In this document: piece after piece, positions 52,308 through 54,952 of the stretch | Numbering within the stretch: position 1 is the stretch's first letter | Layout of the letters: every line of letters begins with the position of its first letter | Source: Bythopirellula goksoeyrii | GTDB lineage: Bacteria; Planctomycetota; Planctomycetia; Pirellulales; Lacipirellulaceae | Assembly: GCF_008065115.1 (NCBI RefSeq) | Contig: NZ_CP042913.1 | Location: 1,028,338-1,092,337, forward strand | Direction of reading: 5' to 3' | DNA: 64,000 bases | Position numbers and translations under genes: made by a program | The notes under the pieces: generated by a model | What the model was told of the DNA's origin: nothing | Databases searched by the model: none | Seen by the model: only the letters and a program-made list of their open reading frames with translations

Positions 52308-52479
52308 GGATCTCCTTTACTGCAGTTCAAGACGAACCGCTGCCGGGCATAGTGAGTGGGAGAGTCGCCGGGAGCAGGGTGCCACCGACGACGCTCGTAC
52401 CGCATTGAGAACGAAAGTGGGCGCATGCCATCGAGTTCCTTGAGAACCGTGCTTGCTGCGCACAAGATAAGGAGATCCG
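52308..52479 (+). promoter_or_regulatory. Leader with element complementary to the ribosome-binding site
   Basis: CGGATCTCCTT at 52308-52318 is the exact reverse complement of AAGGAGATCCG at 52469-52479, which contains the ribosome-binding site of the CsrA-receiver gene (ATG 52484). If both are on the transcript, pairing would hide the site. Several GGA trinucleotides, the core of CsrA sites, lie in the leader, one in each arm. An 11-base direct repeat, CTGCCGGGCAT, occurs at 52290 and 52340. Confidence 0.6.
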
Positions 52480-52483
52480 CACT

Positions 52484-53260
52484 ATGCTTGTTTTGTCTCG
52501 AGGACCCCAAGATAAAATTGTTTTCCCCAACCTCGGCATTACGGTCGAGATCCTGCGTGTTGACGGCCATCGAGTGCGCGTGGGGGTGGATGCCCCCAAA
52601 GACATTCGTATCCTACGACATGAGTTGACCGAAACACTCAACGGCGAGTTGCAGAGTGAAGCCGAACGAGAGGCTGAATCGAAACGGACCCACGATCTTC
52701 GCAATCGACTCAACGGCGCCCAGCTTTCCCTGAGCTTGATGGAAAAGCAACTCGATCGAGGAATGCATGATGAGGCTTTGGCCTCACTACATTCGGCGAT
52801 TCACGAGATTGACCAGCTAGATGGCAGTGCGAAAACAGAAGTTTCCGATGATTCTGTTGGAGAACCGGCGAACCCTATTCCTCGTGCCCTGCTAGTGGAA
52901 GACGATTCCAATGAATGTGAGTTGCTGGCCGGCTATCTGCGAATGAGCGGCTATGAAGTCGAGACTGCTCAAGACGGCTTGCAAGCAATGGTGCAACTAG
53001 CGCGCCGGGATCGTCCCGACGTAGTGCTACTCGACATGCACATGCCGCGCATGGACGGACCGAAGACGGTCAAATCGATTCGCTTGAATCCGGACTATAG
53101 CGGTGTGAAGGTGTTCGCCGTGACAGGCTCGCAGCCCGAAGAAATGAATGTGGAAATCGGACCGCGTGGTGTAGATCGCTGGTTCCAAAAGCCCATTCGC
53201 CCTCAAGAGTTGGTCGATTCCTTAAATGATGAGCTTCTTGGTGCGGCGAAGGTCCATTGA
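52484..53260 (+). CDS. CsrA domain fused to helical HDLRN segment and receiver domain
   Basis: The 258-residue protein starts MLVLSRGPQDKIVF and residues 1-55 form a CsrA domain (VEILRVDGHRVRVGVDAPKD, ILRHEL); L4, R6 and R45 (R44 of E. coli CsrA) are kept, so RNA binding is plausible. Residues about 56-115 are helical with THDLRNRLNGAQLSL, H70 being placed as in histidine phosphotransfer/dimerisation helices. Residues 131-250 are a complete receiver domain: D140/D141, phosphoacceptor D184 (VVLLDMHMPRMDG), T214 and K236. It lies 99 bases upstream of a hybrid kinase gene on the same strand. I infer an RNA-binding response regulator controlled by that kinase. CsrA is normally a stand-alone protein of about 60 residues. 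Confidence 0.9.
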   Translation: MLVLSRGPQDKIVFPNLGITVEILRVDGHRVRVGVDAPKDIRILRHELTETLNGELQSEAEREAESKRTHDLRNRLNGAQLSLSLMEKQLDRGMHDEALASLHSAIHEIDQLDGSAKTEVSDDSVGEPANPIPRALLVEDDSNECELLAGYLRMSGYEVETAQDGLQAMVQLARRDRPDVVLLDMHMPRMDGPKTVKSIRLNPDYSGVKVFAVTGSQPEEMNVEIGPRGVDRWFQKPIRPQELVDSLNDELLGAAKVH

Positions 53261-53359
53261 CCTCGCTTCGCTAAGAACTTCGAATCGTTTAAGGTTGGTC
53301 GGTGTGCCTCGGCCAATCTTCGTTTGAATCGTGCATTGCAACGTCTGGGGGGCAGAATT

Positions 53360-54952
53360 ATGGAAAATCAGTGTCGTGCGTGTCTGACAAGATACGGCTT
53401 TGCCGTACTAGCGACCGTGGTGGCAACTTGGGCGCGCATGTCGATGCATGGCTGGCTGGATGATCATATGCCTTTTGGCATCTATTTTCTTTCGGCAATG
53501 TTGACAGTCTGGGTAGCTGGAGTTGGTCCAGCAATACTATCTCTATTCTCCGGCATCGCGGCGGGGGTGTATTGGGTCATTGAACCTCGCTATAGCTGGA
53601 CGGTCACCGAACCCGCAGACCAATTTTCACTGGCAATTTATGCAGTCGTTGGAACAGCGGCAATCGCAATTTACTGGCGCGCGGACTCCAGGCAGGTCGC
53701 AGTCAATCTTCAATCGGCAGCCAATGCGGAACTTACCGAACAACTCCGAGCAGCAGACCGCAAGAAAGATAACTGGCTGGCACTGCTTGCTCACGAGCTG
53801 CGAAATCCGTTGGCTCCGATTCGCTCGGGTATCGACCTGCTCGATCGAGAAACGTTGAAGTCCGAACAAGTCCGCGAAATTCGCAAGACGATGCGCCGGC
53901 AAACCGAACAGCTTTTGCGTATTGTGGAAGATTTGCTCGATGTCTCTCGCTACACCCGAGGGCAACTGCGACTGGAATGCGAGACAGTCGATCTTCGCGA
54001 GATCGTCAAGGAAGCGATAGAAATGGTCGCACCTATGATTGCAGAAAACAATCATGACTTGAAAGAAGTGAAATACTGCCAACCCTTGGTCGTCAATGGC
54101 GATCCAACAAGACTGATTCAAGTCGTTTCGAACTTGCTATGCAACGCGGCAAAATATACACCCCGCGGTGGGCGGATCCAAGTCTTGCTGGATGGTGACT
54201 CTGATTCGGCGCGAGTTTGTGTCATCGACAACGGGATCGGGATCACCAAAGAATTGCAAAGTAGTGTGTTTGATCTCTTTGCTCAAGCGGACTCACCTCG
54301 CAATCGTGATCGGCAAGGACTGGGTATAGGCTTGGCATTAGTGAAATCACTCATGGATATGCATAGTGGCCAGGTTGCCTTGCACAGCGACGGGCCCGGG
54401 AAGGGGAGTCACTTTACCATCACGCTGCCGAGACAGGATTCGGCGATGCTGGTAAAAGTCGAACCTCCCGAGTCAACTCCAGAAGTAGCAGATTCGGCAT
54501 CTATCGAAGGTGCAACGGTGTTGCTCATCGACGACAATCAAGAGGCAGTACATACCCTCGAAGCTCTGCTCTCGCTAGATGGTTGCCGGACTTACGCCGC
54601 GTTCGATGGGCCGTCAGGACTTGAGGCGATGACGGTCGTGCAACCTGATTTTGTTTTGCTTGACATTGGCATGCCGGGAATGGATGGATATGAAGTTGTC
54701 CGCAGGATCCGCAAGGAAGCCGCGTTGCCGAGGCCCATCGTAATTGCCATCTCGGGTTGGGGTAGTGAAGAAGATCGTCAACGAGCTTTGAGGGCGGGAT
54801 TTGATGACCATCTTGCCAAACCAGTCGACTATGGCGAACTCGTCGACTTGCTTCTTGCGAAGGCAAGTAAATGTGATGCGATGGAAAGCATCGCCGAAGG
54901 CCGCAAACCTCAAGATTTGCTCCGTGACAAAGGCTTCCAGCCTGTGAAATGA
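53360..54952 (+). CDS. Membrane hybrid histidine kinase with C-terminal receiver
   Basis: From ATG 53360 the protein has 530 residues. An N-terminal DUF4118-like (KdpD-type) membrane part has about three or four segments in residues 10-112 (FGIYFLSAMLTVWVAGVGPA). A short coiled coil leads to HisKA with H145 in LLAHELRNPLAPI, then HATPase (VSNLLCNAAKYTPRGG, VIDNGIGI, GLGIGLALVKSLMDMHSGQV) and a receiver domain with D435 in VLLDIGMPGMDGYEVV. No periplasmic sensor is present, so sensing is by the membrane part or by a partner. The adjacent CsrA-receiver protein is the natural target. A hairpin near 53300-53330 (TTGGTCGG and CGGCCAA) separates the two genes. Confidence 0.92.
   Translation: MENQCRACLTRYGFAVLATVVATWARMSMHGWLDDHMPFGIYFLSAMLTVWVAGVGPAILSLFSGIAAGVYWVIEPRYSWTVTEPADQFSLAIYAVVGTAAIAIYWRADSRQVAVNLQSAANAELTEQLRAADRKKDNWLALLAHELRNPLAPIRSGIDLLDRETLKSEQVREIRKTMRRQTEQLLRIVEDLLDVSRYTRGQLRLECETVDLREIVKEAIEMVAPMIAENNHDLKEVKYCQPLVVNGDPTRLIQVVSNLLCNAAKYTPRGGRIQVLLDGDSDSARVCVIDNGIGITKELQSSVFDLFAQADSPRNRDRQGLGIGLALVKSLMDMHSGQVALHSDGPGKGSHFTITLPRQDSAMLVKVEPPESTPEVADSASIEGATVLLIDDNQEAVHTLEALLSLDGCRTYAAFDGPSGLEAMTVVQPDFVLLDIGMPGMDGYEVVRRIRKEAALPRPIVIAISGWGSEEDRQRALRAGFDDHLAKPVDYGELVDLLLAKASKCDAMESIAEGRKPQDLLRDKGFQPVK

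Follow-up and report, generated by a model that had tools for sequence, protein, structure and literature searches.

CsrA, RsmA and RsmE are free proteins of about 60 residues under sRNA or FliW control, and two-component signals usually reach CsrA through the transcription of sponge sRNAs. The BarA/GacS-UvrY/GacA-CsrB/RsmY-CsrA cascade is a hybrid-kinase phosphorelay of this type, ending in CsrA control by way of the transcription of sequestering sRNAs. Receivers are coupled to an RNA-binding output in the ANTAR regulators (AmiR, NasR/NasT, EutV), where the antitermination domain lies C-terminal to the receiver, and the His-Asp-His-Asp logic of the Spo0F-Spo0B-Spo0A and hybrid kinase-HPt/ChpT relays employs a helical-hairpin histidine module that has no kinase domain of its own. 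The planctomycete protein described here shares with CsrA/RsmA/RsmE the Pfam CsrA domain, the conserved RNA contacts, and an A(N)GGA at the ribosome-binding site of its own mRNA, but its CsrA forms the N-terminal portion of a response regulator of 258 residues, placing CsrA inside the regulator itself, in contrast to the sRNA-linked BarA/GacS cascade. Unlike in the ANTAR regulators, the RNA-binding output is N-terminal and a hairpin separates it from the receiver, and unlike in the Spo0 and HPt/ChpT relays, a single chain joins this hairpin to the final receiver and the RNA-binding output.

The pairing of a receiver with CsrA is not in itself new. Both CsrA and ANTAR had been given as RNA-binding response-regulator outputs by 2007 (PMC2222644, after Galperin 2006), so the bare fusion is already catalogued, although the original prediction knew of no described system of this make-up. 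What PMC2222644 gives for the CsrA-output regulators in its listing is the domain type only, and its text there is without the hairpin, H-box, kinase partner, distribution, or leader site that are features of the present family. A search confined to the open-access literature found no functional study of CsrA-receiver proteins, and the relay hairpin, distribution, kinase linkage, and leader site appear to be undescribed in that literature. A further source, PMC12471899, tabulates the CsrA of Escherichia coli among orphan response regulators and provides no evidence for a CsrA-receiver family.

The window (the whole 64,000-nucleotide stretch of Bythopirellula goksoeyrii DNA that was analyzed) contains the following features of this system.

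52466..52477, + strand: leader GAU[AAGGAG]AUC, with an A(N)GGA that overlaps the Shine-Dalgarno and is proposed as a CsrA site for autoregulation (from leader comparison)
52484..53260, + strand: CsrA-helical hairpin-receiver protein, 258 aa (ORF with ATG start; Pfam CsrA and Response_reg above cut-off; family n = 212)
52484..52636, + strand: CsrA RNA-binding domain, residues 1-51 (Pfam PF02599, 52.8 bits, cut-off 27)
52667..52846, + strand: DHp-like helical hairpin, residues 62-121 (two helices in the AlphaFold2 model)
52691..52711, + strand: H-box-like motif H70-D-L-R-N74-R-L76 with the candidate phosphotransfer histidine (from conservation in the family)
52883..53233, + strand: receiver domain, residues 134-250 (Pfam PF00072, 76.5 bits, cut-off 30.2)
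53033-53035, + strand: phosphoacceptor D184 of the CsrA-protein receiver (from conservation in the family)
53324..54952, + strand: partner hybrid histidine kinase, 542 aa from a TTG, with an in-frame ATG at 53360 (Pfam DUF4118, HisKA, HATPase_c, and Response_reg, all above cut-off)
54518..54850, + strand: kinase receiver with the proposed intermediate phospho-Asp D447 (Pfam PF00072, 85.7 bits)

Pfam supports the original prediction that a CsrA domain and a receiver occupy one 258-residue ORF, with the Response_reg match itself spanning residues 136-247, and residues L4, R6, R45, H70, D140, D141, D184, T214, and K236 all lie at the positions claimed for them. Unlike a free single-domain CsrA, the protein has extra domains, and it falls below the NCBIfam equivalog cut-offs of csrA and PRK01712 (46.3 bits against 73, and 43.7 against 70.1). 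The receiver carries the hallmarks of response regulators, namely, the acidic pocket, phosphoacceptor aspartate, Thr/Ser, and lysine, with D140, D184, S/T214, and K236 conserved; the catalytic set claimed for it is complete in the window protein, but D141 is often Asn in relatives. An AlphaFold2 model of the full protein (mean pLDDT 87) contains helices at residues 46-91 and 95-121 in addition to the receiver, and a Foldseek search with this full-length model listed receivers only among its matches. Pfam listed no match to an ANTAR output domain in the window protein or in the relatives examined.

We gathered 212 family members with flanking DNA, all of them from the class Planctomycetia, where 102 of 398 sampled genomes have a match (in a few cases a partial one), as do 97 of 340 genomes of good quality and 64 of 186 genera. 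An order-level sample gave matches in 49 of 297 whole genomes and a single family in 100 of 241, and when genomes were sampled across the phylum, full-length matches were confined to this class, with more distant genomes matching mainly in the receiver. Full-length relatives found by genome scan include proteins of Bythopirellula polymerisocia (88% identity), strain K23_9, and strain CA13. The PF02599 match is present in all 50 members examined, and L2, R6, G34, A37, P38, R45, D140, D184, K236, and P237 are invariant among the first 50, of which 41 keep H70; over all 212, the conserved residues are R6 (210), R45 (209), D184 (200), K236 (188), H70 (165), and N74 (159). The CsrA-receiver fusion is a real and widespread family, and the search for proteins with CsrA followed by a receiver thus disposes of the concern that the fusion might be absent from any relative. 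We note that the 6.5-Mb genome of B. goksoeyrii contains 13 CsrA-domain matches above the Pfam cut-off, one of which has an internal TAG; this is an unusually large CsrA complement.

The hairpin between the two domains contains a single strongly conserved motif, H-x-x-x-N-x-L, within a linker that is variable across the family alignment. The H-box of kinases reads HELRNPL, and the resemblance of the conserved motif to it makes an extra relay site at H70, as originally suggested, plausible. Modeled as an isolated fragment, the hairpin reaches an AlphaFold2 pLDDT of 91. Its Pfam HisKA match in the window protein (residues 69-112) is weak and below threshold, at 14.6 bits against a cut-off of 26.9; the domain is matched in 24 of 61 relatives, with a best E value of 4.5e-6, and three members have a weak match to the Spo0B-type SPOB_a. 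Comparison of the hairpin with the HisKA of partner kinases in hhalign gave a probability of 97%, with H70 aligned on the phospho-histidine, against less than 1% for 15 column-permuted controls and 1 reversed control. This signal was gone once the H-box was masked, so it represents an H-box match on a predicted hairpin and is no independent proof of hairpin-wide homology. Foldseek with the hairpin alone found no significant fold match, and a PDB sequence search with the hairpin profile returned helical-repeat, designed, and unrelated helical proteins without a useful match. A changed hairpin (for example, AVRRRLD) is seen in L297, L300, L305, L319, L324, L334, and L276-L278, where H70 is mostly lost and the adjoining kinase is usually absent.

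The original prediction placed the partner kinase gene 99 bases downstream, a distance that holds when the ATG at 53360 is taken as the start codon of the kinase. Such an adjoining kinase is the usual linkage but not an invariable one: 125 of 212 members have a kinase gene no more than 1 kb away, and none was found that close in the other 87, some of which are near contig ends. Among the first 129 members, 88 have a histidine kinase gene within 1 kb, in all four relative orientations, and a kinase occurs in 39% of flanks at 0-1 kb but in 1-5% for each further kilobase out to 6 kb. In the window kinase, a DUF4118 sensor is joined to a core related to that of the kinases of L086 and L105, two larger hybrid partners that by Pfam have a CheB-CheR-PAS-HisKA-HATPase_c-receiver architecture. 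The latter two (L086:7157-11191 and L105:5356-9348) tie methylesterase/methyltransferase modules to a CsrA regulator.

All four sites of a His-Asp-His-Asp relay exist in the window pair, with H157 and D447 as the candidate sites of the kinase and H70 and D184 in the CsrA protein. We hypothesize that the adjoining hybrid kinase autophosphorylates, at H157 in the window, and that the phosphate would move to D447 in the kinase's own receiver and then cross to the CsrA protein, first to H70 on its DHp-like hairpin and last to D184 in its receiver. Phosphorylation of this receiver would then tune RNA binding, as first proposed, by altering the dimer in a way that raises or lowers the affinity of its paired CsrA domains for A(N)GGA, and where A(N)GGA sites overlap ribosome-binding sites, that of its own mRNA included, the outcome would be a direct translation switch. 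The domain anatomy, the conservation, the kinase linkage, and the excess of A(N)GGA in leaders are observations, whereas the order of the relay, the involvement of H70, the direction in which phosphorylation acts, and the choice of target mRNAs are inferred. The reading we favor, at somewhat better than even confidence, is a response regulator that binds RNA and has a phosphotransfer module of its own, reached by a hybrid-kinase relay through H70 to D184 and switching translation directly.

The distribution of H70 relative to receivers in the partner kinases is consistent with this reading. Pairs scored by the H70 alignment column and by kinase domain calls comprise 103 H-positive/hybrid, 14 H-negative/non-hybrid, 7 H-positive/non-hybrid, and 1 H-negative/hybrid, the last of which (L208) looks decayed. 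The 7 H-positive/non-hybrid pairs include L293, which is cut off where its stretch of sequence ends; L178 (2137-6378), where the kinase receiver follows the ATPase domain directly in a different frame, through assembly error or frameshift; and L198, L222, and L330, where a separate receiver gene overlaps the kinase gene. With L178 and these three added to the 103 found by domain call, 107 of 109 H70-positive members beside an assessable kinase have a receiver in the kinase or in an overlapping gene, the true exceptions being L274 and L285, which keep H70 beside kinases without a receiver. H70-negative members near a kinase stand beside non-hybrid kinases in 14 of 15 cases, and in two of these, L102 and L314, the kinase is followed by a separate receiver gene; Pfam confirmed the lack of a receiver in the 9 non-hybrid kinases rechecked, and of 30 background kinases from these loci, 16 are hybrid. 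The pairing of H70-positive members with hybrid kinases fits transfer from kinase His to kinase Asp to H70 to D184 with an RNA-binding output, and the family is probably fed by a phosphorelay through H70.

Most H-negative members near a kinase form one clade, so that independent co-losses are few and a tree-aware test of H70/receiver co-loss was not significant after correction for ancestry; on the tree, loss of the histidine together with the receiver has about 1 supported independent pair, with 0 against and 2 without a kinase difference. L207, in which H70 is changed to Gln, and its look-alike L274, in which it is kept, both stand beside a kinase without a receiver, a single case, consistent with H70 being less constrained once the receiver is lost.

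Two other arrangements were observed in these loci. On one strand, L198:5611-9518 and L222:276-3690 encode, in this order, a kinase, an overlapping receiver gene, and a CsrA-H70-receiver gene, with a Spo0F-like intermediate as its own gene. L100, L102, L103, L105, L108, L112, L176, and L180 have two CsrA-receiver paralogs several kilobases apart, the copy with H70 beside a hybrid kinase of ∼1,340 aa and the copy without H70 beside a non-hybrid kinase; in L176 and L180 the hairpin is deleted in the paralog without H70.

The same data can be read as a plain two-component pair, in which the kinase would phosphorylate D184 directly, the hairpin would be a dimerization stalk, and H70/N74 would form a built-in phosphatase site. 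The Asn or Thr four residues after the histidine of HisKA kinases has a phosphatase role, and this position is Asn in 159 of 212 members; a dimer stalk would be useful because CsrA is itself dimeric, and both D184 and the kinase linkage are retained in H-negative members. Direct phosphorylation leaves the split between H-positive members with hybrid kinases or receiver genes and H-negative members with non-hybrid kinases unexplained, though shared ancestry could account for it, and we regard it as possible but doubtful.

The output side of the relay model draws on the leader of the CsrA-receiver gene. Of 124 members, 89% have an A(N)GGA over the ribosome-binding site, against 31% of 177 control ORFs. 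At stem positions 2 and 3, the sequences on either side of the hexamer pair with frequencies of 0.84 and 0.77 in members versus 0.40 and 0.38 in motif-bearing control ORFs. Among 67 dereplicated leaders, GG/CC pairing of the flanks exceeded the re-paired null, with 0.0003 and 0.001 of permutations reaching the observed value. RNA folding of the window leader by itself gave no thermodynamically stable hairpin, so the case for the leader is a comparative one, and it suggests that the A(N)GGA over the gene's own ribosome-binding site is an autoregulatory CsrA site. The leaders of partner kinases have no excess of A(N)GGA (30% of 82), and control of the kinase gene through this motif is therefore unsupported.

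These leaders also bear on whether the CsrA domain might act between proteins, titrating other CsrA proteins as mixed dimers without binding mRNA of its own, with phosphorylation shifting the mixing. Hetero-dimers are possible given the 13 CsrA-domain matches in the genome, but conservation of the RNA contacts R6 and R45 and of the G34/A37/P38 core, together with a CsrA-type site in the gene's own leader, makes titration of this kind improbable. That the fusion is accidental and has no signaling role, as the decayed look of a few members such as L208 might hint, is hardly credible in view of 212 relatives, the spread over Planctomycetia genomes and genera given above, and the retention of D140, D184, K236, R6, and R45 in 50 of the first 50 members.

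We are evenly divided on the broader proposition that the relay model describes a widespread planctomycete class in which H70, a terminal receiver, and a CsrA output share one chain, a hybrid (often CheB-CheR-PAS) kinase would feed it, and translation, that of its own mRNA included, would be switched. About a quarter of sampled Planctomycetia genomes have the family, which is apparently unstudied, and it offers a compact system for asking whether CsrA can be a phospho-regulated output, with natural variants that have or lack H70 making the relay step testable. The joining of CsrA, a hairpin with a candidate histidine, and a receiver, usually beside a sensor kinase, suggests that in these cells a signal may act directly on the translation of mRNA; a receiver and CsrA on one chain, fed by the adjoining hybrid kinase, would provide a direct route from signal to translation.
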